Assembly: GCF_001641085.1 (NCBI RefSeq)
Contig: NZ_LXIE01000003.1
Span: forward strand, 1-57,968
Source: Aequorivita soesokkakensis
Lineage (GTDB): Bacteria; Bacteroidota; Bacteroidia; Flavobacteriales; Flavobacteriaceae
Reading direction: 5' to 3'
Length of the DNA stretch: 57,968 nucleotides
Shown here: in pieces, positions 10,699 through 50,821 of the stretch
Numbering within the stretch: the first letter of the stretch is position 1
How the letters are laid out: each line of letters starts with the position of its first letter
Program-made: the position numbers and the translations under genes
The notes under the pieces: model-generated
Told to the model about the DNA's origin: nothing
The model's input: the letters and a program-made list of their open reading frames with translations, nothing else
Databases searched by the model: none

Positions 10699-10706
10699 CA
10701 AAGATA
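10699..10706 (-). promoter_or_regulatory. Candidate -7 promoter box for gpmI
   Basis: Minus strand TATCTTTG followed by CACA and the ATG, matching TAnnTTTG. No good -33 box is seen; the upstream positions are occupied by an 8-base tandem repeat. The ATG would be very close to the transcript start. Confidence 0.4.
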
Positions 10707-10737
10707 AGTCGATAAGTTGATGAGTCGATGTGTTTAT
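10706..10737. repeat. Degenerate tandem repeat, period 8, upstream of gpmI
   Basis: Four units on the plus strand: aagtcgat, aagttgat, gagtcgat, gtgtttat. It resembles the period-7 arrays elsewhere in the window but has a longer unit. It lies where the -33 box of the gpmI promoter would be expected. Confidence 0.65.
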
Positions 10738-10765
10738 CGGTTTAGAGCATTTTTTTATCTTTAAT

Positions 10766-11512
10766 TTAAGAAAGCAACTTCGGATTGATATCCAAAATAT
10801 TCTCTTTCACATATTTTGAAACGAAGGCTTCGGAAAAATGTTCGTTGCCCAAAATCTTTTCTTCGGAAAGCATTTTTTTTACATCAATCTTTTCTTTGTA
10901 AGCTTTCAACATTGGGATGGAAACTGGGGCATAACTGAAATGCCACGGCTCATATTTAAAACCTTTACGGATGCCATTGTCTGTGTAAACTTCATAAAAA
11001 TCAAATTTTGTAGCATTTTCATTAAGCCAAGTTTTCAATTTGCAGAATGGACCGGTTCCGTGAAAATTTTCTGGCATCAATACATTTGAAGGTCTCGGTG
11101 CGTTGGCGTCAATAATATCGATATCCGTTCCCCAATGGTGGCGCGAAGTCCCTGGAATGGTAGAATATTCTTTTATTTTTTGGATTGCTTTGTCGGGTGA
11201 AAGTCCTTCGGAAGTAAATTTTTTGTACTTCCCTTCAAAAATTTCTTTCTGCCGCTGAAAGCTTCTATAGGCAGAAACCACTTCAATATTTATGTTTTCC
11301 TTAGCGGCCGCGGCTTTCATTTTCAGGAATGCTTCCTTTGCGGTCTTGTGCATTTTGGAAGTGTAGCTATCGCCCACAATATCTGGGTTGCCTTTTCCAA
11401 TCAATTGGTTTCGTGTAAATTCTTCTGAAAAATTATTGAAAGAAAATTGTGGAAAAATAGCCAAACTTATTCCTGCAAGGCCTGAAATTTTAATAAATTC
11501 GTTGCGCTTCAT
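10766..11512 (-). CDS. D-alanyl-D-alanine carboxypeptidase family protein (VanY-like, M15)
   Basis: 248 residues from the ATG at 11512 (MKRNEFIKIS); longer readings run into the divergent GNAT gene and hide the signal sequence. The N-terminal hydrophobic segment (about 8-22) is a signal or anchor. The M15B zinc site is visible: SAYRSFQRQ (substrate Arg), SRHHWGTDIDI (His and Asp ligands) and EPWHFSY (Glu base and His ligand). It should trim D-Ala from peptidoglycan stem peptides in the periplasm. Divergent from the GNAT gene with only 36 bases between. Confidence 0.9.
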   Translation of the reverse strand: MKRNEFIKISGLAGISLAIFPQFSFNNFSEEFTRNQLIGKGNPDIVGDSYTSKMHKTAKEAFLKMKAAAAKENINIEVVSAYRSFQRQKEIFEGKYKKFTSEGLSPDKAIQKIKEYSTIPGTSRHHWGTDIDIIDANAPRPSNVLMPENFHGTGPFCKLKTWLNENATKFDFYEVYTDNGIRKGFKYEPWHFSYAPVSIPMLKAYKEKIDVKKMLSEEKILGNEHFSEAFVSKYVKENILDINPKLLS

Positions 11513-11548
11513 TGTATGAATTAGTGAAGTTTTAAAATTACCATTATT

Positions 11549-11986
11549 TTGAAAGATAACGCCATTTCCATAAGTATTATTGAAAAGAATGACATTTTCA
11601 GTATTGTTCCGCTTTTGCAAAAGCTGGGAAATTTTTCGGTTTCCGAACCATTAATAAAAGAACGTTTGCAGGAAATGGTGGAGCAGAACTATGAATGTCT
11701 CGGCGTTTTTGATGCTGGAAAATTAATTGGCGTTTGCGGACTTTGGTTCCAAACACGCCATTATGCCGGAAGAAGCATGGAGGTGGATCACGTTATTATT
11801 GACGATGCATACCGAAGCCACGGGATTGGTAAAATTTTAATGGAATACGTTTACGAATACGCCCGAAAAAAATCCTGCAACTGGGTTGAATTAAATACGT
11901 ATGTCCATAATTTTCCGTCACATAAATTTTATTACAACCAAGGGTTTGTGGCGAAAGGGTATCATTTTGTGAAAGAGCTCATTTAA
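11549..11986 (+). CDS. GNAT family N-acetyltransferase
   Basis: 145 residues. The start is a TTG at 11549; the first in-frame ATG would remove the conserved N-terminal third. The acetyl-CoA site is seen as VDHVIIDDAYRSHGIGKIL (motif A, R/Q-x-x-G-x-G/A pattern), and the C-terminal SHKFYYNQGF is motif B. Its stop overlaps that of the convergent peptidase E gene by 4 bases. Substrate unknown. Confidence 0.85.
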   Translation: MKDNAISISIIEKNDIFSIVPLLQKLGNFSVSEPLIKERLQEMVEQNYECLGVFDAGKLIGVCGLWFQTRHYAGRSMEVDHVIIDDAYRSHGIGKILMEYVYEYARKKSCNWVELNTYVHNFPSHKFYYNQGFVAKGYHFVKELI

Positions 11987-12702
11987 TTCTGAATTCTGAA
12001 TTCTGAATTTAGAATTGTGCCGCTTTCAACTTCATACGGTGCTTTTCCCTGCTCAAAAACGCGTGCTTTTAATTCGCCTTTTAAAATAATTTCTTCGTCT
12101 TTTACACGTAGCCAGCTGCCTTCACGTAAACCAATTACTGGAATATTGTTTTGCGTGTGAAATTCCGCAATACGGGTTTCGCGGGTTTCACCCATGTGTT
12201 TGCTGTTTGGTTCTGGATCCAGATAATGCGGGTTTAGGTTGAAGGGAATTACGCCCAAAGTTTTAAAAGAAGGCGGATAAACAATGGGCATGTCGTTTGT
12301 GGTCTGCATAGAAAGGCCACAAATATTGCTGCCGGCACTAGTTCCTAAATATGGCAATCCGTTAAAAATTGCCTCGCGAAGCGGTTGCATCAACTCTAAA
12401 CGGTAGAGGGCACTTACCAAAACAAAAGTATTTCCGCCGCCCGTAAATGCGCCTTTTGCGTTTTTTAAAGCTTCAATAGGATTGTCAAAAGTGTGCAATC
12501 CAATTAGCTTTTTGCCAATTTTAGTAAATGTTTTTGCGGCCTTTTCGGTATATTCATCGTGGCTGATACCACCGGGACGGGCGTAGGGGATAAAGATTAC
12601 TTCTTCAGTGTCTTTAAAAAGCTCAGTCATTTCGTCCGTAAGATAATCGAGATATTCACCGCCATAAACGGTGCTGGTGCTTGCTATGAGTAGGTTTTTC
12701 AT
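11983..12702 (-). CDS. pepE: Peptidase E (S51 dipeptidase)
   Basis: 239 residues, close to the ~229 of Salmonella PepE. It hydrolyses Asp-X dipeptides in the cytoplasm. Family motifs: GGGNTF (nucleotide-like loop), GTSAGSNI with the nucleophilic Ser, NLNPHYLDPEP carrying the catalytic His, and GLREGSWL. The last 11 residues (ILNSEFRIQN) are encoded by a period-7 DNA repeat and are not part of the family fold. Confidence 0.93.
   Translation of the reverse strand: MKNLLIASTSTVYGGEYLDYLTDEMTELFKDTEEVIFIPYARPGGISHDEYTEKAAKTFTKIGKKLIGLHTFDNPIEALKNAKGAFTGGGNTFVLVSALYRLELMQPLREAIFNGLPYLGTSAGSNICGLSMQTTNDMPIVYPPSFKTLGVIPFNLNPHYLDPEPNSKHMGETRETRIAEFHTQNNIPVIGLREGSWLRVKDEEIILKGELKARVFEQGKAPYEVESGTILNSEFRIQN
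11985..12017. repeat. Period-7 tandem repeat in the 3' end of pepE
   Basis: Three exact aattctg units, then aatttag and a partial unit. It is translated as the C-terminal tail of peptidase E on the minus strand and starts at the end of the convergent GNAT gene. Confidence 0.85.
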
Positions 12703-12790
12703 TTTAAGTGTTTTTCAGAATTGTAAATTTAACTATTGATAACGTAAACTTTAAGTTTTCACTAACAAAACAAAGCCGTATTTTTAGTGA

Positions 12791-13609
12791 ATGGCAAAAA
12801 GACTACTCTTCCTTTTATTTATTATTGCTTCCCCCACGATTTTTGCGCAGGATATTGAGCGCACCAAAGTGGCTGGAAAAATACATGTGCCAACGGGCGA
12901 TGATGCCGAGGGCATTAATGTTTACAACGTTTCCTCACAAAAAGGAACTATCACGGATGCTGATGGTTCTTTCGAAATTGAGATAGCAGAAAACGACCGC
13001 GTTCAGATAACCGCGTTACAATATCAATCCTTTACCGTAATAATTGATAAGGGAATTGTGGAACGGAAAAAGATAAATATTTTTATGAATCCGTCCATCA
13101 ATCAATTGGATGAAGTGGTGGTTCGGCCCTATGACCTTTCTGGCAACATAAATGTGGACGTAAAAAAAATTCAAACATTTACAGTTTCAAATGATTGGGA
13201 TCTTGGGTACGAAAATCTTGAATACGGCTATCATTTTGAACAGGATCTTCAAACCGCGATTTCCGGTAATGCCGCTGAAGAAGCGCTTCACGGAAATAGT
13301 TTGAAAAATGGGGCAAATATTTTGGGGCTCTTGGCGGGTGCCGTCAGTTTGCTACTTCCCAAAAAAGACAAAACCACTCCAGCCGAAAAGTTGGAATCTG
13401 GAAATGCTTTAAACAATAATCTTCAACAACGTTTCAGCAGAAATTTTATAGCCTCCACTTTTGGGATTCCCGAGGAAAAAGCAATAGATTTTCTCTATTT
13501 TGCACAAGAAAATGGATGGGATCAACGCTTGCTAAAACCCCAAAACGAAATGGAATTGATGGAGTTTCTTTTCCAAAAAAGCAAAGAATACAAAGAGCGC
13601 AGTGAGTAA
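12791..13609 (+). CDS. Exported carboxypeptidase-regulatory-like domain protein (paralogue 1)
   Basis: 272 residues. Signal peptide (1-19, IFAQ), then a CarboxypepD_reg-like beta-sandwich (about 25-105: VAGKIHVP, TDADGSFEIEI, LDEVVVRPYD) as found at the N-terminus of TonB-dependent receptors, here without a barrel. The rest is specific to this family: LSGNINVDVKKI, a central helical part, then FGIPEEKAIDFLYFA and a charged tail. Paralogous to the next gene, with which it overlaps by 8 bases. Probably periplasmic; function unknown. Confidence 0.85.
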   Translation: MAKRLLFLLFIIASPTIFAQDIERTKVAGKIHVPTGDDAEGINVYNVSSQKGTITDADGSFEIEIAENDRVQITALQYQSFTVIIDKGIVERKKINIFMNPSINQLDEVVVRPYDLSGNINVDVKKIQTFTVSNDWDLGYENLEYGYHFEQDLQTAISGNAAEEALHGNSLKNGANILGLLAGAVSLLLPKKDKTTPAEKLESGNALNNNLQQRFSRNFIASTFGIPEEKAIDFLYFAQENGWDQRLLKPQNEMELMEFLFQKSKEYKERSE

Positions 13610-14375
13610 TAAAACTTTTTATACCGTCCTGCTTTGCTTTTTTTCAACGTTGCAATTTCTGGCCCAGCAAAAATCATTGCAGGGCAAAATTACCAACAAT
13701 ACCGACATTGAAGGCATTCACGTACTGAATACTTTTTCTCGCTACAATACCATTACCAATGAAAATGGTCACTTTTCAATAGGGGTAAAACCACAGGACA
13801 CGCTTCTTTTTTCCTCCATAAAATATATGCCCGAAAAAGTAGTGGTTACTGATGCTATTTTTGAAAAAGGAGTAATTACCGTAAAGCTTACTGAAATTGT
13901 AAACGAATTGGATGAAGTATTTTTGGAACCCAACCTTTCCGGCAATATTGCGGCAGATCTTAAAAAAATAAAGACGGAAAAACCCATCAATTTTGATGAT
14001 GTAGGGATTCCAGGTTTTAAAGGCGAGCCCGAGGAAAAGATTGTGCCGCTATATTTTGTGGTCACCCCTGTAAGTGTAGATATTGAGGCACTTTATAAAT
14101 ATATTTCAGGATATTACAAAGAGCTAAAAATACGCCGCCGTTGGGAGATTGAAAACAATGCCGTTGCCCAAATGCTTAATTATTACACGCTTTCCTTTTT
14201 TACTACAACCTATGGCATTCCCGAAAATAGAGTATATGATTTTCTATTATTTTGTGCAGAAACCACCCAAATTGAAAGTGATTTCAAAAAAGAAAAATAT
14301 GGAAATGTGCTTTTGGTTTTAGATGAAAAAGCAAAAATTTATGCCGAACGACTTTCCGAAGAAAATAAAAAGTAA
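13602..14375 (+). CDS. Exported carboxypeptidase-regulatory-like domain protein (paralogue 2)
   Basis: 257 residues. Starts with GTG at 13602, eight bases inside the previous gene; this start gives a clean signal peptide (LCFFSTLQFLAQQ). It has the same plan as its neighbour: a regulatory-like domain (LQGKITNN, NENGHFSIGV, NELDEVFLEP), then LSGNIAADLKKIKT, and a C-terminal YGIPENRVYDFLLF matching FGIPEEKAIDFLYF of paralogue 1. Clearly a tandem duplication. The overlap suggests translational coupling and perhaps a heteromer. Function unknown. Confidence 0.85.
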   Translation: MSNKTFYTVLLCFFSTLQFLAQQKSLQGKITNNTDIEGIHVLNTFSRYNTITNENGHFSIGVKPQDTLLFSSIKYMPEKVVVTDAIFEKGVITVKLTEIVNELDEVFLEPNLSGNIAADLKKIKTEKPINFDDVGIPGFKGEPEEKIVPLYFVVTPVSVDIEALYKYISGYYKELKIRRRWEIENNAVAQMLNYYTLSFFTTTYGIPENRVYDFLLFCAETTQIESDFKKEKYGNVLLVLDEKAKIYAERLSEENKK

Positions 14376-14433
14376 TATTTGTAACATAATAAAACAGTAA
14401 ACGTCTAATGTTCCATTAGCCTCTTTTTTAAAA

Positions 14434-14934
14434 ATGAAGATTTTCCGAATTTTTGCTTTATTTATGGTCTTTCCTTTGATCTCGGCCACTCCTGCCCATA
14501 AATTTTATGTTAGTATCACTAAGATAGAATACGTTAAAGAAAAAAGTTCACTTCAAATTATCACCAAAATTTTTATTGACGATATTGAAGATGCGCTACA
14601 ACAGCGGTATAATCCATCAATTTCATTGGACACAAAAAAAGAAACAGCAGCGGCAGATGAAGATTTAAAAAAATACATCCTTCAAAAAATAAATATTAAA
14701 GTGAACGGCAAAGCTGTGTCCTTAAATTATATAGGCAAAGAATACGATACAGATATGGTCGTTGCTTATATGGAGGTCACGGATGTAAAGGAATTGAAAA
14801 CGATTACAATTGAAAATAAAATCTTGTTGGATGTTTTCTCTGAACAGCAAAACATAATACACCTTAAAACCCCAAATAGCCGCAAAAGTTTGATACTTGA
14901 CAAAGATGAACCCAGCGGCCAACTAAATTTCTAA
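14434..14934 (+). CDS. DUF6702-like exported protein
   Basis: 166 residues. Signal peptide to about residue 20 (LISATPAHKFY), then a soluble beta-rich domain: HKFYVSITKIEY, LQIITKIFIDDIEDAL, INIKVNGKAVSLNYIGKEY, and a C-terminal IIHLKTPNSRKSLIL. The start HKFYVS and the FIDDIE segment are what I recall of the DUF6702 family, found next to M1 peptidase genes in Bacteroidota. Here it ends 16 bases before one. A periplasmic partner or chaperone of the peptidase is a guess from context. Confidence 0.75.
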   Translation: MKIFRIFALFMVFPLISATPAHKFYVSITKIEYVKEKSSLQIITKIFIDDIEDALQQRYNPSISLDTKKETAAADEDLKKYILQKINIKVNGKAVSLNYIGKEYDTDMVVAYMEVTDVKELKTITIENKILLDVFSEQQNIIHLKTPNSRKSLILDKDEPSGQLNF

Positions 14935-14950
14935 ACCCATAAATTTTATA

Positions 14951-17257
14951 ATGAAAATAGCAAACTCCCTATTTCTTGCAGTACTTTTCCTTTTTTCCGG
15001 AATCGTTGCGGCGCAGGAAGAAACAGACGCACAAACACGCGAACCCGGCCATTATAACACCAACCGTTTTAAGCAACTTTACGAAGAATTTTCAACACCA
15101 AATATGTTTCGAACTGCTAGCGGTGCGCCAGGGCCAAATTATTATCAGCAACAAGCGGACTATGTGATGGACATAGAACTTGACGATAAAAACAAAAAAC
15201 TTACGGGGACTGAAACCATTACCTATTCAAATAATTCTCCCGATAAATTGGAATTTCTGTGGGTTCAGTTAGACCAAAATAAAAGGGCAAAAGATTCAAA
15301 ATCGCCTTTAATTGAACCTTCCGATGCACAGCCAGCAAATATGGCGGGTAGCTTTATTCAAAATTATATGGGGAATGAATTTGATGGCGGTTTCAATATT
15401 TTGGAAGTGAAAGACGCCAAAGGCAATCCGCTTAAATACACCATAAACCAAACGATGATGCGCGTGGATATGCCGAAGAATTTAATGCCCGGTGAAAAAT
15501 TCGTCTTTTCAATCAAATGGTGGTATAATATTAACGACCACGTTGTAGATCGCGCCCGAAGTGGTTACGAAACCTTTGAGGACGGAAACCGAGGTTATGT
15601 AATTGCACAGTTTTACCCACGAATGGCGGTTTATAACGATGTGGAAGGATGGCAGAACAGCCAGTTTTGGGGAAGGGATGAGTTTGCTTTGCCTTTCGGA
15701 AATTTTGAAGTGAACATTACTGTTCCAGCAGACCACATTTTAGACGGCACCGGAGAGCTTCAAAATAGAAAGGAAATTTTCACCAAAGAAATGATGAGCC
15801 GTTATGAAGCCGCGCAAAAATCATTTGACAAACCTGTTTTAATTGTAACCCAAGCCGAAGCGGAAGCCGCTTCTAAAAACTTTTCGACCGCAAAAAGAAC
15901 ATGGAAATTTAAAGCCGAAAATGTACGCGATTATGCTTTCGCAACTTCCCGAAAATATATTTGGGATATGATGGCCGTGAAAATGGGAAGCGGTCACGTT
16001 ATGGCTGTTTCATTATATCCTCCAGAATCAAATCCTCTTTGGGAAGATTGGTCCACTAAAGCAGTTGCTAGTACTTTGACTTCCTATTCGCGAATGACTT
16101 TTGATTATCCGTACTCCAAAGCGATCTCAGTAAGCGCTAAAAATCAAGGAATGGAATATCCAATGATTTGCTGGAACCACGGTCGTCCAGACAAGGATGG
16201 AACTGTTAGTGAACGCACAAAATTCGGAATGATCAGTGTGATTATTCACGAAGTGGGCCACAACTATTTCCCGATGATTGTAAACAGCGACGAACGCCAA
16301 TGGACGTGGATGGACGAGGGGCTAAACACCTTTGTGCAGTATGTGGCTGAACAGGATTTTGGCGAAACCCATCCAGATGCAATCGCGCCAAACAAGCAGT
16401 ATCCATCCCGTCGTGGGCCTGCAAGAAATATTGTGGATTATATGGCCGGTGACCAAAGTCAATTGGCGCCAATTATGACCAAAGGTTTAAATACCTATAA
16501 TTTTGGTGCCAATGCCTATTCAAAACCAGCAACAGCATTGAATATTCTTCGTGAAACCATAATGGGCCGTGAACTTTTTGATTTTTCTTTTAAAACCTAT
16601 GCAAATCGCTGGATGTTCAAACACCCAACGCCTGAGGATTTTTTCAGAACAATGGAAGATGCTTCTGCGGTTGATTTGGATTGGTATTGGAGAGAGTGGT
16701 TTTACACTACGGACTATGTTGATATTGGTGTGAAGGACGTTAAAAAATTCTATATTACTTCAAAAATGAATAATGAAGTGAAACAAATGATGGCCGCACG
16801 TGGCATTTCAGAAAGCGATTTACCGCCTATGGTCTATTTGGTGGAAGAAGACAGCGAAGATTTTGAAGAAAGTATGCGAAACTCAAAACTGGAAGATGTG
16901 ACCACCTTGAATGAATATATAATGGACAATATTCCTGTTGAAGAAAGAGCGAAGTTGAAGCATCCAAAATATTTTTACAAAGTAACTTTTGAAAAGCCGG
17001 GAGGCATTCCAATGCCGATTATTACGCAATATACTTACAGCGACGGCACGACCGAAAGAATTACATATCCTGCTGAAATATGGCGAAAAAATGATGAATC
17101 GGTGGGAAAGGTTATCGCTTCAGAAAAGGAAATTACCAAAATAGAAGTAGATCCAGATGAGGAAACCGCAGATATTGACACTTCCAACAATAGTTGGCCG
17201 AAACGAAAAAAACTTGGGGCTTTTGATAAATTCAAAAACAAAACGAACCCAGATTAA
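14951..17257 (+). CDS. Secreted M1 family metallopeptidase
   Basis: 768 residues. Signal peptide (1-21, GIVAAQ), an N-terminal beta domain with YVMDIELDDKNKKLTG, and the catalytic domain with HEVGH at 433-437 and the third zinc ligand Glu456 (HExxH-x18-E, in WTWMDEGLN). The usual GxMEN exopeptidase loop appears as NQGMEYP. The C-terminal part (about 590-700) contains acidic segments and a lysine-rich tail. It probably acts as an aminopeptidase in the periplasm or on the surface. A strong terminator follows. Confidence 0.93.
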   Translation: MKIANSLFLAVLFLFSGIVAAQEETDAQTREPGHYNTNRFKQLYEEFSTPNMFRTASGAPGPNYYQQQADYVMDIELDDKNKKLTGTETITYSNNSPDKLEFLWVQLDQNKRAKDSKSPLIEPSDAQPANMAGSFIQNYMGNEFDGGFNILEVKDAKGNPLKYTINQTMMRVDMPKNLMPGEKFVFSIKWWYNINDHVVDRARSGYETFEDGNRGYVIAQFYPRMAVYNDVEGWQNSQFWGRDEFALPFGNFEVNITVPADHILDGTGELQNRKEIFTKEMMSRYEAAQKSFDKPVLIVTQAEAEAASKNFSTAKRTWKFKAENVRDYAFATSRKYIWDMMAVKMGSGHVMAVSLYPPESNPLWEDWSTKAVASTLTSYSRMTFDYPYSKAISVSAKNQGMEYPMICWNHGRPDKDGTVSERTKFGMISVIIHEVGHNYFPMIVNSDERQWTWMDEGLNTFVQYVAEQDFGETHPDAIAPNKQYPSRRGPARNIVDYMAGDQSQLAPIMTKGLNTYNFGANAYSKPATALNILRETIMGRELFDFSFKTYANRWMFKHPTPEDFFRTMEDASAVDLDWYWREWFYTTDYVDIGVKDVKKFYITSKMNNEVKQMMAARGISESDLPPMVYLVEEDSEDFEESMRNSKLEDVTTLNEYIMDNIPVEERAKLKHPKYFYKVTFEKPGGIPMPIITQYTYSDGTTERITYPAEIWRKNDESVGKVIASEKEITKIEVDPDEETADIDTSNNSWPKRKKLGAFDKFKNKTNPD

Positions 17258-17278
17258 TTTATAATTATTTCAGAAGAG

Positions 17279-17312
17279 CCCTTCCTCAAATTTTATTGAA
17301 GAAGGGTTTTTT
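17279..17312 (+). terminator. Rho-independent terminator after the M1 peptidase gene
   Basis: CCCTTCCTCAA pairs with TTGAAGAAGGG (one mismatch) around a six-base loop and is followed by six T. Confidence 0.85.
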
Positions 17313-17334
17313 CGTTAAACCTAGATTTCAGAAA

Positions 17335-17369
17335 AACTCATAACTCATACCCCAAAACTCATAACTCGT
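17335..17369. repeat. Period-7 tandem repeat upstream of tatA
   Basis: Units in register: aactcat, aactcat, accccaa, aactcat, aactcgt. The array ends four bases before the -7 box of tatA, so it fills the place of the -33 element. Confidence 0.85.
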
Positions 17370-17372
17370 TAG

Positions 17373-17380
17373 TATATTTG
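17373..17380 (+). promoter_or_regulatory. -7 promoter box of tatA
   Basis: TATATTTG followed by CAGC and the ATG at 17385. With this spacing the transcript would begin at or next to the start codon (a leaderless or near-leaderless message). No TTTG-like -33 box is present in the repeat just upstream. Confidence 0.5.
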
Positions 17381-17384
17381 CAGC

Positions 17385-17672
17385 ATGATTTCACAGGCAA
17401 TTTTTTTATTCATCAGCGGTGCCGAAATAGGTTTTATCCTTTTTATCGTGCTTTTGGTTTTTGGCGCAGACAAAGTGCCCGAAATTGCACGCGGAATGGG
17501 GAAAGCAATGCGACAAATTAAAGATGCCACAAACGACATTAAATCTGAAATTACAAAAGGCGCCGAAAAACAAGGGATTGATATAGACATCACCAAAGAT
17601 GTTCAAAAACAAATTGACCAAGTAAAGGACGAGGTTGATGAGGTTACGGGCCCTATAAAAAGGAAATTCTAA
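17385..17672 (+). CDS. tatA: Sec-independent protein translocase TatA-like subunit
   Basis: 95 residues with the TatA/B plan: one N-terminal membrane helix (about 10-26, IGFILFIVLLVFGADKVPEIA) with the FGxxxxPEIA hinge, an amphipathic helix (GMGKAMRQIKDATNDI) and a charged tail that ends PIKRKF. It forms the pore-like part of the twin-arginine export system. TatC is not in the window. Its stop overlaps the convergent O-methyltransferase stop by 4 bases. Confidence 0.9.
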   Translation: MISQAIFLFISGAEIGFILFIVLLVFGADKVPEIARGMGKAMRQIKDATNDIKSEITKGAEKQGIDIDITKDVQKQIDQVKDEVDEVTGPIKRKF

Positions 17673-18310: not shown

Positions 18311-18320
18311 TTTGAAATTT

Positions 18321-19877: not shown

Positions 19878-19994
19878 AACTGAAAATTTAAGTTTGGACG
19901 AATGTAGAACGGATTGTAAATGGAAACGTTCGCGGTTTCAAATTATACCAAAAAATAGTGGAATGTGATTAATTGTGAATGCGGTTACAATGAG

Positions 19995-22239: not shown

Positions 22240-23025
22240 TTACAAACTTTTGGTGCGTCCGCCATCTACGGGAAGATTTATTCCGTTGATGTAGCTGGCG
22301 GCTTCACTGGCGAGGAAAGCCACGGCATTTGCAATTTCACCTGGTTGTGCAAAACGTCTTGCGGGAACAAGACTTTTCATAAACTCGCTGGCTTCTTTTT
22401 CGGTTTTATTCATGCGTTTTGCAGCATTTCCAACAATGTCATCCAATCTGTCTGTAGCTGTAAAACCTGGCAAAACATTGTTCACCGTTATCCCGAATTG
22501 GCCCAACTCATTCGCCAAAGTTTTACTCCAACTAGCAACGGCACCACGAATTGTATTACTCACGCCCAGCCCATCGATAGGTTGTTTTACCGAAGTGGAA
22601 ATTATATTGATAATCCTTCCATAATCGGCTTCTTTCATTCCGGGAACAACGGCTTGGGCCAAAATCTGGTTACAAACCACGTGCATTGAAAAGGCTTTTT
22701 CAAATTCGTCAGTTCCTGCGGAAAAGATTGGACCGCCTTTTGGACCACCCGTATTATTAACTAAAATGTGAAATATTTTGTTGGAAACAGCAACTTCCAC
22801 TTTGTCTTTCAATTGTTGCGGATTCGTAAAATCTGCTACAAAATAGTTGTGCTTTTGGCCTTTTTCAAAAGGAAGTTCTATCAATGTTTCTTTCAATTTT
22901 GCTTCATCACGTGCAACCAAAGTTACGGTCGCCCCAAGTTTTGCCAATTGAATAGCGGTTGCTTTTCCAATGCCAGCGGTGCTTCCGCACACTAGGGCGT
23001 TTTTATCTGTTAAGTCTAAATTCAT
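22240..23025 (-). CDS. SDR-family protein lacking the catalytic Tyr/Lys
   Basis: 261 residues from the ATG at 23025; a TTG six bases upstream is less likely. The N-terminal NAD(P) site is normal (CGSTAGIGKATA, VNNTGGP replacing NNAG). The active site is not: where the family has Tyr-x-x-x-Lys the sequence reads SNTIR (156-160), so Tyr is Ser and Lys is Arg. The Ser of the tetrad (IISTS) remains. Such atypical SDRs form a known subgroup near FabG. Between ACMSD and the semialdehyde dehydrogenase in the operon; role in kynurenine breakdown unknown, possibly a different chemistry or a binding role. Confidence 0.85.
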   Translation of the reverse strand: MNLDLTDKNALVCGSTAGIGKATAIQLAKLGATVTLVARDEAKLKETLIELPFEKGQKHNYFVADFTNPQQLKDKVEVAVSNKIFHILVNNTGGPKGGPIFSAGTDEFEKAFSMHVVCNQILAQAVVPGMKEADYGRIINIISTSVKQPIDGLGVSNTIRGAVASWSKTLANELGQFGITVNNVLPGFTATDRLDDIVGNAAKRMNKTEKEASEFMKSLVPARRFAQPGEIANAVAFLASEAASYINGINLPVDGGRTKSL

Positions 23026-23028
23026 AGT

Positions 23029-23098
23029 CAATATTCAATGTTCAATTCTTAATTCTCAATTCTCAATTTTTTTATTCCTCATCCCTCATACCTAATAC
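23029..23098. repeat. Period-7 tandem repeat between the SDR and dehydrogenase genes
   Basis: Ten consecutive 7-base units in register, drifting from caatatt, caatgtt, caattct, taattct through tttattc to ctcatcc, ctcatac, ctaatac. The right-hand 20 bases are translated as the last codons of the aldehyde dehydrogenase gene, including its stop codon. Confidence 0.85.
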
Positions 23099-24528: not shown

Positions 24529-24549
24529 TCTATTCTTAATTCATAATTA
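24529..24549. repeat. Short period-7 repeat at the 3' end of the SHOCT gene
   Basis: Three loosely conserved 7-base units (tctattc, ttaattc, ataatta) spanning the gap between the dehydrogenase start and the SHOCT gene stop. Weaker than the other arrays. Confidence 0.45.
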
Positions 24550-25036
24550 GAGGCGTCAATTCGGTCTTCAATTTTTCATATTCTGCTAAAGTTATTACTT
24601 CTAAATCCAATAATTCTTTAGCCTCTTTCAATTTTGCAATCGCTTGTTCTCTAGTTATCTTAATGTTCGTATTTTTAATTTCGCCAAGTTCCAGAGCAAT
24701 ATCATAATCTATTAAAACAGGCAACAAACCATATCCTTTGAAATGCGCATAGAGTTTATATCCACTACTCTTATTTCCATATGTTTTTAATTTATCCACT
24801 ATCACTTTTTTATCAGACAAAGTGTTTGATACTCTTTGGCCGCCTTGTGAAATATAAGTGAAGCCTAAATCAGAAGTTGGAATTCCAACAGTCAATGTAT
24901 CTCCAACTTTTAAAGTATCTCCTGTTCTTGTTAGATAGATTTTGTATTCGGATTTTTTAGTCAATTTTCCATATTCAGCCGTTTGGGAATAACCGAGTGA
25001 AGTGCTGAAAATTAATAAAAATGTAAGTATTCTCAT
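24536..25036 (-). CDS. Exported protein with C-terminal SHOCT-like domain
   Basis: 166 residues. Signal peptide to about residue 18 (SLGYSQ). The middle is a small beta-rich domain (KSEYKIYLTRTGDTLKVGD, KLYAHFKGYGLLPVLIDY). The last ~35 residues (AIAKLKEAKELLDLEVITLAEYEKLK) have the short helical SHOCT pattern with the typical G/L-x-I-T-x-x-E-Y-E/F-x-x-K core. It sits 2 bases after the RidA gene and 11 before the dehydrogenase gene, so it belongs to the operon although an exported protein is unexpected in this pathway. Function unknown. Confidence 0.78.
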   Translation of the reverse strand: MRILTFLLIFSTSLGYSQTAEYGKLTKKSEYKIYLTRTGDTLKVGDTLTVGIPTSDLGFTYISQGGQRVSNTLSDKKVIVDKLKTYGNKSSGYKLYAHFKGYGLLPVLIDYDIALELGEIKNTNIKITREQAIAKLKEAKELLDLEVITLAEYEKLKTELTPLIMN

Positions 25037-25038
25037 TT

Positions 25039-25461
25039 TTATAGTGGTTTATAAGCCATCGCCTTAATCTCAACAACTAAATAAGGATGCGGCAATTGAT
25101 GCACAGCAACGGTAGTACGAGTTGGTCCCGTTTCCTTATTAAAATATTCAGCGTACACTTGATTATAACCCGCAAAGTCATTCATATTTACCAAAAAGCT
25201 TGTTACATCCACAACATCTGCCATAGTTGCCCCTTCCGTGGCTAAATAATCTTTTATGTTTTCAAGTACGGCGCGGGTTTGTTCTTTTATATCAAAATGC
25301 ATCGTGCCCATTTCGTCAATTTTATGAACGCCGGCAAAGGTATTGTCCGGCAGACGCGAACTTGTTCCGCTTATAAATATAAAATCGCCCACGCGTTTTA
25401 CATGTGGATATGCGCCGCGCGGCGTTGCTTTTCCTTCTACTAATCTGCTTTTGTTACTCAT
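25039..25461 (-). CDS. RidA-family 2-aminomuconate deaminase
   Basis: 140 residues. RidA/YjgF fold: [36 protein letters not shown], and [19 protein letters not shown] with the Arg needed for imine deamination. GTSSRxPDNT and the longer N-terminus ([12 protein letters not shown]) fit the AmnD branch that converts 2-aminomuconate to 4-oxalocrotonate plus ammonia. Placed directly in the kynurenine operon, which supports that reaction over general RidA function. Confidence 0.88.
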
Positions 25462-41240: not shown

Positions 41241-41274
41241 CAAAAGTACGAAAAAAAGCCCCCTAACCCCCAAA
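41241..41274 (-). promoter_or_regulatory. Promoter of lipA-gap-kinase
   Basis: Minus strand TTTG (41274-41271), a 22-base spacer, then TACTTTTG (plus CAAAAGTA at 41241-41248). Spacing is slightly long for the consensus. The -7 box ends only 8 bases before the lipA ATG. Confidence 0.5.
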
Positions 41275-41294
41275 GGGGAAACTCCATTTTTTTT

Positions 41295-41337
41295 AAAATT
41301 TGGGATTTGGAATTTGATTTTTTGGAATTTGTATTCT
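41295..41337. repeat. Period-7 tandem repeat at the 3' end of the sigma-factor gene
   Basis: Units aaaattt, gggattt, ggaattt, an 8-base gattttt+t, ggaattt, gtattct. It ends exactly at the stop codon of the sigma-factor gene on the minus strand. Next to it (41258-41285) is a C-rich/G-rich stretch with CCCC and GGGG runs that could fold into a terminator-like stem on the minus strand. Confidence 0.7.
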
Positions 41338-42995: not shown

Positions 42996-43021
42996 TTACG
43001 ATTGTTAAGTGAAGATTTTAG

Positions 43022-43063
43022 GTTTGCTATTTGGAATTTGGAGCTTCCGAATTGGAAATTTCA
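43022..43063. repeat. Period-7 tandem repeat at the 3' end of the small Cys-rich protein gene
   Basis: Units gtttgct, atttgga, atttgga, gcttccg, aattgga, aatttca. On the minus strand it is translated as the last residues (ISNSEAPNSK) of the 74-residue protein. Confidence 0.8.
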
Positions 43064-43251: not shown

Positions 43252-43285
43252 CTGTATAATTTAAAGTGCAAAAATACAATCTTTC

Positions 43286-43317
43286 TTGCGGTTGTGCTCA
43301 GATTTTAAGTATTTTTA
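43286..43317 (+). promoter_or_regulatory. Weak candidate promoter of the fasciclin gene
   Basis: TTG, a 21-base spacer, then TATTTTTA, one mismatch from TAnnTTTG. It lies about 20 bases before the ATG at 43339. Confidence 0.3.
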
Positions 43318-43338
43318 GCCCCTATTTTAAAATTTTTT

Positions 43339-44982: not shown

Positions 44983-46169
44983 TCCTTATATTTTTGAAGC
45001 GCAAGTTTCAAGATTTCTACTGCGCGAACAAGGCTGTCTTTTTTCAAAACGTAAGCAATGCGTACTTGGTTCAACCCAACGCCGGGACTTGAATAAAAAC
45101 CTGCAGCGGGAGCCACCATAATGGTTTCGCCATTGTCGTCAAATTCTTCCAAAAGCCATTGTGCAAAGGCATCACTATTTTTAACGGGAAGTTGCACGAT
45201 ACAATAAAAAGCTCCTTTTGGTTCACCCACTTGTACGCCGGGAATGGCTTTTAATGCTGTGACCAAAGTGTTTCTTCTATCCTGATATTCCGTGATTACT
45301 TCATCAAAATAACTTTGGGGGGTTTGTAGCGCAGCTTCACTCGCAATCTGAGCAAACGTTGGAGGGCTCAAACGTGCTTGGGCAAACTTTAAAGCGGTGG
45401 CGATAACCTGTTTGTTTTTTGAAACCAAACAACCAATGCGTGCACCACACATGCTGTATCTTTTTGAAACCGAATCGATAATGATTCCGTTTTCGGCCAT
45501 GCTTGGTTCCTCGAGAATTGAATAATGTTTGTAGCCGTCATAGGTAAATTCACGGTACACTTCATCAGAAACCAAAAACAAATCGTGCTTCTTTACAATT
45601 TCCGCCAACGTTTGGATTTCTTCTTTTGAATAAAGATAACCCGTTGGATTTCCGGGGTTGCAGATAAGTATTGCTTTGGTTTTTGGAGTAATTAGTTTTT
45701 CAAATTCTGAAATTGGCGGCAATGCAAAATTGTCTTCAATTTTTGAAATAACGGGAACAATCTTAACACCGGAAGCCGTTGCAAAACCATTGTAGTTTGC
45801 ATAAAATGGTTCTGGAATAATTATTTCATCATCAACATCAGCAATACTTCCCATTGCAAAAAGTAACGCCTCGCTTCCGCCGGTGGTTACTATAATATCA
45901 TTCGCCTCCGCGGGAATGTTGTTTTTTTTGTAGTAACCTGCAATTTTTTCACGGTATTCCTGTGAACCCTCAGAACGAGTGTATGCAAGTATTTCCAAGT
46001 GGTGGTGCGCCACGGCATCCATTGCAATTTCTGGAGATTTGATATCGGGCTGACCAATGTTTAAGTGATAAACGGTTTTGTTTGCTTTATAGGCTTTTTC
46101 GGCGTAGGGAACTAGTTTACGGATGGGTGATTCCGGCATGTTTTTCCCTTTGTGTGAAACTGAAGGCAT
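44979..46169 (-). CDS. PLP-dependent class I/II aminotransferase
   Basis: 396 residues. PLP-binding features of fold type I: ILICNPGNPTGYLYS, LVSDEVYREFTYDG and the Schiff-base Lys in DSVSKRYSMCGARIG, followed by the RIAYVL segment with the carboxylate-binding Arg. Close to aspartate/aromatic aminotransferases of subfamily I-gamma type. The N-terminal PSVSHKGKNMPESPIRKLVPYA and HLNIGQPDIKSPE are typical of Bacteroidota enzymes. Substrate not certain. Confidence 0.92.
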   Translation of the reverse strand: MPSVSHKGKNMPESPIRKLVPYAEKAYKANKTVYHLNIGQPDIKSPEIAMDAVAHHHLEILAYTRSEGSQEYREKIAGYYKKNNIPAEANDIIVTTGGSEALLFAMGSIADVDDEIIIPEPFYANYNGFATASGVKIVPVISKIEDNFALPPISEFEKLITPKTKAILICNPGNPTGYLYSKEEIQTLAEIVKKHDLFLVSDEVYREFTYDGYKHYSILEEPSMAENGIIIDSVSKRYSMCGARIGCLVSKNKQVIATALKFAQARLSPPTFAQIASEAALQTPQSYFDEVITEYQDRRNTLVTALKAIPGVQVGEPKGAFYCIVQLPVKNSDAFAQWLLEEFDDNGETIMVAPAAGFYSSPGVGLNQVRIAYVLKKDSLVRAVEILKLALQKYKD

Positions 46170-46283
46170 AATGAATTTGTTTGTGGCAAAGTTGCAAAAT
46201 ATATTTTATAATTCCACTTTGATGATAACAACATTCAGCTTTTTTTTATACCTTCAATTCAATTCAAAATAATTCCAAAAACT

Positions 46284-47612
46284 TTGCGAAAACAACTGTT
46301 TTTTTGTTTGCTTTTTTGTTTTTCGGTTTCCCTAATTGCTCAGTCTGGTTTTTTATTACAGAATACTAAAAAAAGGGATCGAATACCTTTTCGGTTAGTG
46401 AACAATTTACCAATAGTTGAAGTGGAAATCAACGGCACACCACTTTCTTTTATTTTGGATACTGGCGTGAAATCTACCATTCTTTTTAGCTTGGAAGAGG
46501 CAGATAGCCTTCAGCTTCGCAACACTTCGCCTGTGTTGCTTCAAGGATTGGGTTCTGGAGGTTCTGTGGAAGCCTTGAAGAGCTTGGATAATAGAATTAA
46601 AATTGGAGATGCTGTAGATAGAGATCATACAATTTTTATAATTTTTGATAGCACCCTTAACTTTTCACCAAGAATGGGCATTCCGGTCCATGGAATTTTG
46701 GGGAATGAATTTTTTCAGAATTTTATAGTCAAGATTAATTACACTTCAAAAGTTATAACCATTTACGATCCTGTAAAATATCCTTTAAAGGAATGTAAAA
46801 AATGTGAGGATTTACCTTTGAATTTTGTAGGCAGCAAGCCTTATATTTCTTTACAGGTTGCTTCAGAAAATACTCAAGACGAAGTAAAACTATTAGTAGA
46901 TTCAGGCTCCAGTGATGTAATGTGGCTTTTTGGCGACAGGGATTTTATATCAGAATCTCCAAAAAATTACTTTGAAGATTTCTTAGGTCTTGGTCTTAGT
47001 GGGAATATTTATGGAAAACGGGCAAGAATTCCGGAGCTTATTATTGGTGATTTTCATTTAAAGGAAGTGAATACCTCCTTCCCAGAAGAAGATGCAATAA
47101 TGAAGGCACGATATTATGAAGATCGGGATGGTAGCATTGGTGGTGGTTTTTTAAGCAGGTTCACCGTTACGTTTGATTATAGAAACAAAAAAATTCGGCT
47201 TAAAAAAAACCATAATTTTAATAATCCATTTAACTATAATATGAGTGGTCTGACCCTTGAGCACGAGGGGGTGGAGCTTGTAAAGGAGGAAAGACGGGCA
47301 AATGTAAATTCAAACCGTGGAAATCAGAATGAAAGCTTGACCATGAATAGCATTTCCATAACCACCGAACTTCATTTTTCATTGGTTCCAAAATTTGTGG
47401 TGGCTGATGTGCGCGAAGGTTCTCCAGCTGCATTGGCTGGAGTTGAAAAAGGGGATGAAGTAATTTCCATCAATGGGAAACCTTGTTATGAATACAAACT
47501 TTATGAATTGATTGAAATGTTTTCAACGGATGAGGGAAAAAGAATTTCAATGGAATTAAAACGTGGCCCCTATTTCAATAAGGTGAAATTTTTTCTGAAA
47601 AGTGTATTTTAA
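46284..47612 (+). CDS. Exported aspartyl protease (retropepsin-like, two lobes) with PDZ domain
   Basis: 442 residues. Start TTG at 46284; no ATG precedes the signal peptide (CLLFCFSVSLIAQ). Two retropepsin-like lobes each have a catalytic-type triad: LSFILDTGVKST (~60-70) and VKLLVDSGSSDVM (~205-217). The second has Asp-Ser-Gly in place of Asp-Thr-Gly, which is also active in some families. A PDZ domain follows (about 365-435: ADVREGSPAALAGVEKGDEVISIN), probably for substrate or partner peptides. Periplasmic or surface protease, with partner unknown. A bidirectional terminator follows. Confidence 0.9.
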   Translation: MRKQLFFCLLFCFSVSLIAQSGFLLQNTKKRDRIPFRLVNNLPIVEVEINGTPLSFILDTGVKSTILFSLEEADSLQLRNTSPVLLQGLGSGGSVEALKSLDNRIKIGDAVDRDHTIFIIFDSTLNFSPRMGIPVHGILGNEFFQNFIVKINYTSKVITIYDPVKYPLKECKKCEDLPLNFVGSKPYISLQVASENTQDEVKLLVDSGSSDVMWLFGDRDFISESPKNYFEDFLGLGLSGNIYGKRARIPELIIGDFHLKEVNTSFPEEDAIMKARYYEDRDGSIGGGFLSRFTVTFDYRNKKIRLKKNHNFNNPFNYNMSGLTLEHEGVELVKEERRANVNSNRGNQNESLTMNSISITTELHFSLVPKFVVADVREGSPAALAGVEKGDEVISINGKPCYEYKLYELIEMFSTDEGKRISMELKRGPYFNKVKFFLKSVF

Positions 47613-47651
47613 AAAAAAACGGCTGAAAGCATTTGCCTTCAGCCGTTTTTT
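47613..47651. terminator. Bidirectional terminator
   Basis: AACGGCTGAA and TTCAGCCGTT form the stem, nine A precede and six T follow. It serves the plus-strand protease gene and the minus-strand DUF1573 gene. Confidence 0.9.
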
Positions 47652-47666
47652 GTAATTGTAAAGTTG

Positions 47667-48062
47667 TTAGCTTTTTTCTAACACGCTACTAGTGTCGCTC
47701 ATCACTTCACCTTTTATTTTTAAAGCCACCATTGGTTCGCTGGCATTTGAATAAACGGTAACAGTTTTTCTGATTGGTCCAACACGGTTTGTGTCATACT
47801 TAACTTGGATAGTGCTACTTGCTCCAGGAGCAATAGGGCCATCTGGTTTTTTCGGGACAGTACAACCGCAACTGGATTTTACATCACTAATAATAAGCGG
47901 GGCATCCCCGGTATTAGTGAATTCAAATACCCTAACGCCGTCACTACCTTTTGCAATAGTGCCGTAATCAACGGTGTCTTCCTTGAAACTGATTTTTGCT
48001 TGTTGTGCCTGTGCGGCAAAACCGATAAAGGCAACAAGAGCCATAATAGCTAATTTTTTCAT
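47667..48062 (-). CDS. DUF1573 (Ig-like) exported protein
   Basis: 131 residues. Signal peptide to about residue 19 (FAAQAQQ), then one DUF1573 domain: VRVFEFTNTGDAPLIISDV, SSCGCTVPKKPDGPIAPGAS, KTVTVYSNASEP. The Cys-Gly-Cys is typical of the family. Exported, role unknown; often tens of copies in Bacteroidota genomes. Divergent from valS. Confidence 0.92.
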   Translation of the reverse strand: MKKLAIMALVAFIGFAAQAQQAKISFKEDTVDYGTIAKGSDGVRVFEFTNTGDAPLIISDVKSSCGCTVPKKPDGPIAPGASSTIQVKYDTNRVGPIRKTVTVYSNASEPMVALKIKGEVMSDTSSVLEKS

Positions 48063-48130
48063 GATTTTGTTTTTTTAATGTATGCTAAAGTATATAACTT
48101 TTAAACATTCTGCAAAATAACTTATTCACT

Positions 48131-48160
48131 TTTATTATCCTGCAGATATATTTACTTTTG
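48131..48160 (+). promoter_or_regulatory. Promoter of valS
   Basis: TTTA at 48131-48134, an 18-base spacer, then TACTTTTG at 48153-48160 followed by CA. Transcription would start about 25 bases before the ATG at 48191. Two codons (TTG at 48158 and the in-frame region up to 48190) lie in the promoter, which supports the later start. Confidence 0.55.
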
Positions 48161-48190
48161 CAACTCATTACTCAAATACCAGACCAAAGT

Positions 48191-50821
48191 ATGGCTCTAG
48201 AAGCAAAATATAATGCAAAGCAGATTGAAAATAAGTGGTATAGCTACTGGATGGAGAATAAATACTTCCATTCTGAAGTGGATGAAAGAACGCCTTATAC
48301 CATAGTTATTCCTCCGCCGAATGTTACCGGAGTACTGCACATGGGCCATATGCTCAACAATACTTTGCAGGATGTTTTGATACGCCGTGCACGTTTGCAG
48401 GGTTTTAACGCTTGTTGGGTACCTGGAACAGACCATGCCTCCATAGCAACTGAAGCAAAAGTGGTTGCAAAATTGAAAGCCGAAGGGATTGACAAAGCAA
48501 ACCTTTCCCGCGAAGAATTTTTAGAACACGCTTGGGAATGGACCCACAAACACGGTGGAATAATTCTGGAGCAGTTGAAAAAATTGGGCGCCTCCTGCGA
48601 TTGGGACCGAACCAAGTTCACCATGGATGAAGATATGTCTGCCTCCGTGATAAAAGTATTTGTGGATTTGTACAGAAAAGGAAACATTTACCGTGGCTAC
48701 AGAATGGTTAATTGGGATCCGCAGGCTAAAACCACGCTTTCGGACGAAGAAGTTATTTACGAAGAAAAACAAGGCAATCTCTATTACCTAAACTATAAAA
48801 TTGAAGGCAGTGATGAAACCTTAACCATCGCTACCACGCGCCCCGAAACAATTTTGGGTGATACTGCTATTTGCATCAACCCGAATGATGAGCGTTTTGC
48901 ACACCTTCGAGGAAAAAAGGCAATCGTTCCAGTTTGTAATCGTGTGATTCCGATTATAGAAGATGAATATGTAGATATTGAATTCGGAACAGGTTGTCTA
49001 AAGGTAACTCCCGCCCACGATGAGAATGATAAAATGTTGGGCGATAAACACAAGCTTGAAATTATAGATATTCTAAATGATGACGCGACTTTAAACAGTT
49101 TCGGCCTTCATTATCAAGGAAAGGATCGTTTTGTAGTTCGCAAGGAAATTGTAAAGGAACTTGAAGAAATGGGCGTGGTTTCAAAAATAGAAACACATAC
49201 TCACAAAGTAGGAACCAGTGAAAGAACCGGCGCAGTGATAGAACCAAAACTGAGCGATCAATGGTTCCTAAAAATGAAGGAACTTGCGCAACCTGCTTTA
49301 GATGCCGTATTGGAAAAAGATGTAAATCTAGTTCCCGAAAAATTTGTAAATACCTATCGCCATTGGATGGAAAACGTTCGGGACTGGAACATTTCCCGCC
49401 AACTTTGGTGGGGACAGCAAATTCCCGCATATTTTTATGGCGATGGGAAGGAAGATTTTGTGGTTGCAGAAAATATTGAAGAAGCGTTAAAACTCGCACA
49501 AGAAAAAACTACAAACTATAAACTACAGACTACAGACTTAACCCAAGATCCAGATGCCCTCGACACTTGGTTTTCATCTTGGCTTTGGCCCATCAGCGTT
49601 TTCAATGGAATTTTGAAGCCGGACAATAAAGAAATAAACTATTATTACCCAACCAACGACCTCGTGACAGCTCCCGAAATTCTTTTCTTTTGGGTGGCGC
49701 GAATGATTATTGCAGGTTACGAATACAGAAACGAAAAGCCTTTCACAAATGTTTATTTAACTGGAATCGTGCGAGATAAACAGCGTAGAAAGATGAGTAA
49801 ATCTTTAGGAAATTCACCAGATCCGATTGATTTGATGGATACTTACGGTGCCGACGGAGTGCGTGTCGGGATGCTTTTGAGTTCACCTGCTGGTAATGAT
49901 TTAATGTTTGATGAAGACCTTTGCAAGCAGGGGAGTGGTTTCGTAAATAAAATTTGGAATGCTTACCGTTTGATTGACGGTTGGGAAGTTGATACCGAAA
50001 AAAACCAATCTCAAAGTGATGTTATTGCATTAAAATGGTACCGTAGCAAATTTCAGAAAACGCTTGCTGAAATTGAAGACCATTACAGCAAATACCGTAT
50101 CAGTGACGCTTTAATGTCAACCTATAAATTGGTTTGGGATGATTTCTGTTCTTGGTTGCTAGAAATGGTAAAACCGCCTTTCGGCGAAAAGATTTCAGAA
50201 AAGACTTATTTGGAAGTAATTTCTGTTTTGGAAGATAATCTGAAAGTGCTTCATCCTTTTGTACCTTTTATTTCTGAAGAAATCTGGCAGCACATCACCC
50301 AGCGCGACATTTCCGAAGCCTTGATAATTTCAGAATGGCCAAAACCAGAAGTTTTTGATGAAAGAATAGTAAAAAACTTCGATTTTGCTGCTGAAGTAAT
50401 TTCTGGAATTAGAACAATTCGCAAAGAGAAAAACATTTCTTTTAAAGATACAATAGCGCTTTCCGTGCTTAATAATGAAAATGCATCAACGGAATTTGAT
50501 GCAGTAATCTCAAAACTCGGCAATGTTTCGGAATTGAATTATATTTCTGAAAAACTGGATGGAGCACTGACATTTCGTGTAAAAAGCAACGAATATTTCA
50601 TTCCAATAGCAGGTGCAATAAACGTTGAAGAAGAAATAGCAAAGCTTTCTGAAGAATTGAAATACACCGAAGGGTTCTTAAAAAGCGTCCAAGGAAAACT
50701 GAAAAATGAACGCTTCGTAAGCGGAGCACCGGAACAGGTTGTGGCTTTGGAAAAACAAAAAGAAGTAGATGCGCTGGCTAAGATTGAAACTTTGAAGGCG
50801 AGTTTGGCAGGTCTGAAATAA
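48191..50821 (+). CDS. valS: Valyl-tRNA synthetase
   Basis: 876 residues from the ATG at 48191 ([16 protein letters not shown]); an in-frame TTG at 48158 lies inside the promoter. Class Ia synthetase: HIGH-type motif [15 protein letters not shown], an editing domain ([15 protein letters not shown]), tRNA-binding insertion, KMSKS motif [11 protein letters not shown], and a C-terminal coiled coil ([19 protein letters not shown]). Residues about 438-449 ([12 protein letters not shown]) are coded by a 7-base DNA repeat and interrupt a region that in other ValRS leads straight into [11 protein letters not shown]. Confidence 0.96.
49504..49538. repeat. Period-7 tandem repeat inside valS
   Basis: Units aaaaact, acaaact, ataaact, acagact, acagact in register, 35 bases, in the reading frame of valS. 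It keeps the frame open and gives a Thr/Tyr/Leu/Gln-rich insertion before the conserved [11 protein letters not shown] motif. Confidence 0.85.

Follow-up and report, generated by a model that had tools for sequence, protein, structure and literature searches.

Tandem heptanucleotides are known from cyanobacteria, where the short tandemly repeated heptamers (STRR) use few fixed units. The present analysis concerns arrays of tandem 7-base units (heptads) in a 57,968-base stretch of DNA (the window), which is contig C3 of a 3.19-Mb genome (G000; 51 contigs) of the genus Aequorivita (Flavobacteriaceae). When the aldehyde dehydrogenase gene of the window was used as query, Aequorivita species ranked at the top, A. 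vladivostokensis with 97% protein identity and 94.2% DNA identity. That 7-base repeats are overrepresented in bacteria has been on record since 2007. According to the excerpts of PMC4679880 available here, Mrazek (2007) found heptanucleotides to be the most abundant class of long simple sequence repeats in most genomes, with polymerase contact length as a possible reason. The polymerase-slippage idea is already in print, as PMC4679880 and, in the part of it drawn on here, PMC4692102 both offer hypotheses for the cause and credit Mrazek 2007 for that of polymerase contact. Excerpts of PMC4679880 also describe TAACTGA direct repeats in Beggiatoaceae, Cyanobacteria and five Bacteroidetes, for which a regulatory role was proposed. 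In A. sublithincola two sets of TAACTGA repeats occur next to other heptamers, and the counterparts of these gaps in A. capsosiphonis are described there as shorter and with no obvious repeats. The GGGNATC repeats of Xanthomonas and the GGGGAYT repeats of Nostoc are G-rich, quadruplex-forming and essentially of one unit in the account excerpted from PMC4692102, which also mentions heptanucleotides of Calothrix; a survey of sequence patterns over phyla is given in PMC4060949, likewise seen as an excerpt. Degenerate heptad arrays of many units were the subject of no title or abstract, for Aequorivita or for Bacteroidota at large, in a literature search that left subscription papers mostly outside.

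Period seven is dominant in Aequorivita without being exclusive. A preliminary description of the window, made from its sequence, had proposed that the arrays share a period, and comparison with other lags across the genome and its relatives bears this out. Segments periodic at lag 7 numbered 36 in a 758-kb sample of G000 (the window, C1:1-400000, C12:1-200000 and C34:1-100000) vs 0.5 expected, the expectation being the mean of two third-order Markov surrogates; at lags 5, 6, 8, 9, 10 and 11 the counts were 0, 3, 9, 0, 0 and 8. In intergenic DNA (67.6 kb) the autocorrelation reached z scores of 10.4 at lag 7, 5.2 at lag 14, 4.2 at lag 21 and 3.4 at lag 8. In a pool of five Aequorivita genomes (G000, G001, G002, G016 and G017; 1.56 Mb) the best period was 7 in 60 arrays, 6 in 24, 14 in 23, 21 in 15, 8 in 14 and 11 in 7, with one array each at 5, 9 and 10. 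The density of lag-7 segments per Mb was 47.5 in G000, 60 in G001, 40 in G016, 35 in G002 and 25 in G017, against 5 and 0 in two genomes of other families of the same order (G025 and G034). In the surroundings of the aldehyde dehydrogenase gene, lag-7 segments numbered 25 in 384 kb from 18 Aequorivita loci, and four other groups of loci held 4 in 332 kb (one of them from L073, an Aequorivita metagenome-assembled genome grouped there), 1 in 320 kb, 2 in 235 kb and 0 in 215 kb.

Outside the genus the distribution is uneven. The heptad pattern AATTCNNAATTCNNAATTC was present in all 23 sampled congeners, in 2 of 15 same-order genomes of other families and in 106 of 296 genomes sampled from the phylum, that of the window among them, and it is patchy even within genera (28 vs 0 matches in species of g38). 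The distant, heptad-rich genome G039 (49% G+C) has other units, with four arrays of period 7 and one each of period 14 and 21. G203 (64% G+C), which is rich by the AATTC pattern, was rejected as a clean case, its arrays having periods of 8 (9 arrays), 21 (7), 9 (6) and 7 (2).

The arrays are mainly non-coding and lie at gene edges. In the five genomes, with genes called as long open reading frames and left uncurated (called genes span 90-93% of the G000 sample), 47 of 68 arrays were placed between co-directed genes, 9 between converging and 6 between diverging genes, 2 at the ends of stretches and only 4 well within a called gene; the available gaps of at least 20 bases number 604 co-directed, 138 converging and 188 diverging. 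The early claim that most arrays touch the 3' end of a gene holds, among arrays between co-directed genes, for gene ends in general and not for 3' ends alone, and one array lies inside a gene (valS). Of the 47 co-directed arrays, 24 were within 15 nt of the upstream stop codon (null 15.6, sd 2.3) and 20 within 15 nt of the downstream start codon (null 15.5, sd 2.4); 37 were near one or the other, vs 23.1 (sd 2.5) for random placement in the same gaps. A role for stop codons or strand was rejected: these 47 arrays hold 147 sense and 87 antisense stops, but TAA, TGA and TAG are ordinary when set against intergenic heptamers (14, 8 and 4 vs 12.8, 5.9 and 4.8). ATG and CAT each occur in one sense unit, where intergenic heptamers predict 5.0 and 4.7 (sd 2.1 each). 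This depletion is 3 vs 12.8 against shuffled units and is weaker against intergenic heptamers (6 vs 11.5 in another count).

The reading preferred here, to which we give a probability of about 0.55, is slippage-type duplication mainly in 7-base steps, with arrays that persist at gene edges and are sometimes kept by selection. Misaligned re-annealing during replication or repair synthesis would create and reshape degenerate simple-sequence repeats, with seven bases mainly gained or lost per event, as is seen in some species comparisons and supposed for the others. Arrays would survive at the borders of reading frames but outside them, chiefly between co-directed genes and where frame and translation starts are unharmed, because a gain or loss of 7 bases within a gene shifts its frame and because arrays with many start codons would be weeded out, as placement and the weak ATG depletion suggest. 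Point substitutions would blur the arrays, at roughly one per unit gained in simulation. Certain heptamers may be amplified with greater ease or pass from array to array, with the result that units recur in families, and selection may retain a few arrays, most clearly at the tatA promoter. The stretch held by DNA polymerase, the printed idea cited above, would fit as the cause of the step and is taken as a hypothesis. Two enzymes were rejected as necessary for the process in a set of 40 hand-picked heptad-rich and heptad-poor genomes: end joining (Ku) was found in 7 and is absent from rich genomes such as G000 and G012, and Y-family polymerases were found in 36 and are absent from the rich G057 and G073.

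Orthologous gaps show both unit replacement and differences in length. Heptads occupy the gap that separates the aldehyde dehydrogenase gene from the short-chain dehydrogenase gene in 8 of 18 Aequorivita loci, in addition to the window and G001 (a nineteenth locus, with a gap of 1.6 kb, was excluded by a length limit); G017 has a palindromic repeat there in place of heptads. Unrelated units occupy this same operon gap in different species, and at least three groups can be told by eye: GATGAGG with ATTGANN (window, vladivostokensis, aquimaris, todarodis and echinoideorum), AATACTC (lipolytica, antarctica and aurantiaca) and TACTGAA (capsosiphonis and G001). Counted between a conserved codon and the start codon that follows, the gap in the first group is 79 bases in the window, 79 in vladivostokensis, 93 in aquimaris, 162 in todarodis and 97 in echinoideorum. 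The additional 14 bases of aquimaris are entirely two units of the first array, and the GATGAGG/TATTAGG array is longer in todarodis, aquimaris and echinoideorum. The gap preceding the aldehyde dehydrogenase gene is 36 bases long in vladivostokensis and UBA3180 and 43 in lipolytica, a difference of one unit. Some gaps appear to be favoured or tolerant, since 6 of 11 junctions compared had heptads in no locus. As a separate observation, palindromic repeats of the CTTCGACTGCGCTCAG type or similar were found in the aldehyde dehydrogenase gap of L046, L049, L052, L053, L054, L073, L105 and G017, all of them lacking heptads there.

For 0 to 7 variable columns, a neutral simulation in which each duplication brings one substitution gave 0.2, 13.9, 39.1, 22.1, 12.8, 5.8, 3.8 and 1.5 arrays, and 7, 13, 34, 21, 13, 8, 2 and 1 were observed among 99 arrays. 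A conserved core with a variable spacer is unneeded to explain these units, the simulated column counts being similar apart from an excess of adjacent pairs.

A number of results weigh against slippage in 7-base steps as a full account. The additions of 83 bases in todarodis and 18 in echinoideorum cannot be divided by 7; when the single units are followed, one of those in todarodis has 6 bases and the linker in echinoideorum is a different one, the remainder being heptads. The window and vladivostokensis have gaps of equal length at 94.2% identity of the neighbouring gene, so the step would be slow and was never caught in the act. The arrays of G002 include 14 of period 6 vs 6 of period 7. 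Upstream of tatA the stretch from AAAAAC to the box TATATTTG, which we take to be a promoter box of the Bacteroidota -7 type, is 41 bases long in all but one of 19 loci (40 in L107), unlike a slipping tract. The simulation yields 0.2 perfect arrays where 7 were observed, its rate was chosen from two values with the fit judged by eye, and the 99 arrays include stretches fetched by pattern hits; among the 34 arrays with two variable columns, these are adjacent in 19 vs 11.3 expected. Unit recurrence is a further difficulty. The 68 arrays fall into 47 unit classes, where random draws of intergenic heptamers give 62.8 on average and never fewer than 56 in 1000, and G012 carries 14 CTTAACN arrays; both go beyond what independent slippage predicts. 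The array at 10703-10744 belongs to a family of octamer arrays in which unit variants are common to different sites.

The preliminary description had called the units unrelated and each array locally grown. The first holds to the extent that a consensus over distinct units is weak, and it fails in that the same units recur at different places; independent growth is not supported, in view of the recurring unit families and the octamer variants. A common consensus of all units was rejected as weak (2.92 vs 2.77, sd 0.09, with five stretches picked for AATTC hits dropped and distinct units counted once), an equal score being reached by 13 of 200 sets shuffled within units and by 5 of 200 drawn from intergenic DNA; with the AATTC-picked stretches included the all-unit score is 3.25 vs 2.63 (sd 0.09). 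Period is supported as the property most common to the arrays. The units are mostly A+T-rich, and CTCA, ACTG and CTGA are weakly enriched in them (9, 7 and 8 occurrences in 54 unit classes vs 2.1, 2.1 and 2.5, orthologous arrays included).

Recurrence of units points to an amplification preference or to copying between arrays. On the second of these, pieces of arrays would be copied from one to another by template switching or short-homology gene conversion, units would disperse without their flanks, and the period would be inherited from older arrays instead of being set by a polymerase. The low number of unit classes would be expected from this, and a unit class of G000 is found again in 8 of 32 arrays from other species vs 2.4 expected (orthologous arrays included). 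The octamer family is found in the window, in G000 at C1 (~21776 and ~259716) and C12 (~19649, ~28138 and ~164757), and in the G001 sample, and its dispersed degenerate arrays have the units GAGTCGAT and AGTTTAGA in common. Apart from the window array, related AGTCGATGAGT stretches lie at 5 places in the G000 sample and 2 in the G001 sample. AGTCGATGAGT occurs 7 times at 5 places in the 758-kb sample and in none of 10 surrogates; 5 of its 7 occurrences overlap open reading frames accepted by the gene caller, which makes the setting uncertain. Arrays also adjoin one another: 5 pairs within 60 nt were counted among 36 arrays, every pair of different units, where random intergenic placing gives a mean of 1.46 and reaches 5 in 11 of 1000 trials. 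Many units occur only once, however, no donor and recipient pair was identified, and recurrence could equally stem from mutational preference or common ancestry. We regard copying as the source of the period as a possible but doubtful explanation.

Side observations on single congeners concern unit composition. In G012 the CTTAACN pattern has 142 matches, most congeners having none; some of its arrays (L241-L252) exceed 100 bases and one alternates CTTAACT and CTTAACC. The hexamer arrays of G002 (L191-L200) include many of a GAAATC type, and three terminate in an identical AAACAAAACTAAAA.

A second alternative invokes selection for binding. By analogy, a protein of the cold-shock or S1 type that reads about seven bases per subunit might bind the arrays in RNA or single-stranded DNA, selection holding the spacing and tolerating the letters; a protein-binding role was proposed for the TAACTGA repeats of Beggiatoaceae, and CspB is able to bind heptamer repeats, both according to excerpts of PMC4679880. 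The strongest case is tatA (TatA/E call by TIGR01411 at 51.8 bits, below the curated cut-off of 53.9). In 20 of 22 Aequorivita sequences, some slots being empty and G017 and L050 being identical here, ACTC-type cores lie 10, 17, 24, 31 and 38 bases ahead of the TATATTTG box. The exceptions are L107, with a single core out of register, and G001, with AATTC heptads in another register; G001 has AATTCTG heptads at the site where the others have AACTCAT. No such array was seen by eye in 22 loci of other genera, although L062 has two AATTC cores. Judging by its conserved register, the array at 17335 looks like a kept functional site rather than a slipping tract. The placement near starts and stops and the weak enrichment of CTCA, ACTG and CTGA would also suit a bound protein. 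Beyond tatA the evidence is less favourable: heptads lie within 70 nt upstream of only 9 of 146 promoter-like boxes, and they were rejected as a general promoter part; orthologous gaps often lack heptads or carry other repeats in their place; and the pattern is patchy within genera, as described above. The wide variation of units makes a sequence reader unlikely, and a non-specific reader needs no repeats. As a general explanation, protein binding is unlikely.

Least probable by far is that dispersed intergenic elements (for example hairpins like repetitive extragenic palindromes, REP) happen to contain heptads and that the arrays belong to them. The heptads at 41295 do adjoin a CCCCTAACCCCC hairpin, and the gap of lipolytica and aurantiaca holds a similar hairpin together with heptads and hexads. 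But heptads occurred in the scanned flanks of 2 of 6 CCCCTAACCCC matches (the six include one place counted on both strands), and when the flanks of the 14 CTTAACN arrays of G012, from 20 to 500 bases off, were compared by blastn, none matched another (E up to 1e-3). The preliminary statement that a copied mobile element does not explain the arrays agrees with this, none having been found that carries them.

A broader picture, which we put forward tentatively and with more doubt than belief, is that in many Bacteroidota the replication or repair machinery may set a sequence-blind 7-base duplication step, that arrays may seed others by templated copying, and that operon gaps may be rewritten in register, with some promoters making use of it (AATTCTG vs AACTCAT at tatA).

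Features of the window are collected in Table 1. Each listed array was compared with 100 third-order Markov surrogates of the window. Five of the eight arrays first reported exceed chance: the numbers of equally periodic stretches expected per window are 0.00 each for 11985-12017, 23029-23098 and 49504-49538, 0.02 for 17335-17369, and 0.14 for 10706-10737 at lag 8. The array at 41295-41337 is weak (1.98 expected; 7 were found at lag 7, yet 8 at lag 9), and Tandem Repeats Finder retains 41297-41316 within it. For 43022-43063 and 24529-24549 there is no excess over chance, 3.48 and 21.8 equally periodic stretches being expected per window. The AATTCTG array at 11985 has no counterpart at the same place in G001 or G017. 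The ATTGANN array appears in the repeat listing as the overlapping rows 23020-23046 and 23042-23068.

Table 1. Repeat arrays and associated features of the window, with positions counted from its first base.
Feature	Position	Strand	Remarks
Degenerate period-8 array (GATAAGTC/GATGAGTC)	10703..10744		Belongs to the dispersed octamer family
AATTCTG heptad array	11985..12017		Overlaps 3' end of peptidase S51 gene (11983-12702, minus)
AACTCAT heptad array	17335..17369	+	Immediately upstream of the TATATTTG box, then tatA (17385-17672); register kept across the genus
TATATTTG box (presumed promoter)	17373..17380	+	In 22/22 tatA upstream regions searched (TATCTTTG in L042)
ATTGANN heptad array (minus-strand sense)	23024..23068	-	Between aldehyde dehydrogenase and short-chain dehydrogenase genes
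GATGAGG/TATTAGG heptad array	23077..23098	-	Adjoins the ATTGANN array; enters aldehyde dehydrogenase 3' end
Array first reported, at chance level	24529..24549		
Weak ATTTGGA heptads	41295..41337		Next to CCCCTAACCCCC hairpin repeat
Array first reported, at chance level	43022..43063		
AAACTAC heptad array	49504..49538	+	Within valS coding sequence; net length unchanged vs most congeners

The heptads of valS, the valyl-tRNA synthetase gene, arose without net length change. An insertion was rejected, 15 of 16 congeners having the same length over the 45-codon stretch compared and G002 being three codons longer. By eye the heptads are similar in G001 and G013 and less evident or missing in other relatives. 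Several further observations were made in the window. A CCCCTAACCCCC...GGGG hairpin repeat lies at 41250-41290, and several species have one in the aldehyde dehydrogenase gap too. A 166-aa open reading frame at 24536-25036 (minus) has no Pfam, PADLOC or NCBIfam match and is present in a single one of the 19 loci of the genus (antarctica, 84%), as variable cargo amid conserved genes. The gene at 25039-25461 (minus) encodes a Rid-family protein that matches the PADLOC model PD-T4-2_B in part and is probably an ordinary Rid. No match to Rfam was obtained for the window at gathering thresholds.

Compared with known systems, the CTTAACN arrays of G012 differ from mobile or REP-like elements, no homology having been detected beyond the array. 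A phase-variable contingency repeat changes length fast and switches a gene, and in the one gap compared the window and vladivostokensis are equal in length, which would speak against that class here. The cyanobacterial STRR are tandem heptanucleotides like the Aequorivita arrays and differ in their few fixed units. The Xanthomonas and Nostoc repeats, as excerpted from PMC4692102, are also intergenic heptads, found mostly at the same genes in two related species and with much variation in length and sequence; they have a G-rich single unit, whereas the Aequorivita units are mostly A+T-rich. The TAACTGA repeats are likewise intergenic heptads, and G000 itself has a TAACTGA array at C34:61319-61382. 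The 758-kb sample has no other TAACTGA array, and G000 has 26 unit classes, so that a single unit does not define the arrays; in the TAACTGA system, heptamers related to that unit are seldom repeated. The TAACTGA repeats are placed just upstream of start codons; of the arrays described here, 20 of 47 come close to a start (null 15.5) and 24 of 47 to a stop (null 15.6). The closest relatives are the heptanucleotide long simple sequence repeats of Mrazek 2007, as represented in the excerpts of PMC4679880 and PMC4692102: these are head-to-tail units of 5-11 nt beyond chance, mainly non-coding, with period 7 commonest and a patchy distribution over phyla, and the Aequorivita arrays agree in each respect, G002 favouring period 6. 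Copy number in that class changes by whole units; between the species compared here the differences were 14 and 7 bases in two cases, 83 and 18 in two others and 0 in one. Aequorivita is a rich example of this known kind of bacterial repeat. It differs from the published account, as excerpted, in that its arrays are degenerate, have dozens of units per genome and could be compared in the orthologous gaps of one genus. The density of lag-7 segments (roughly 25-60 per Mb over the five genomes), together with many units, separates period from sequence and makes these arrays material for testing whether an enzyme sets the step; they also show the turnover of operon gaps and how a promoter may capture a repeat.

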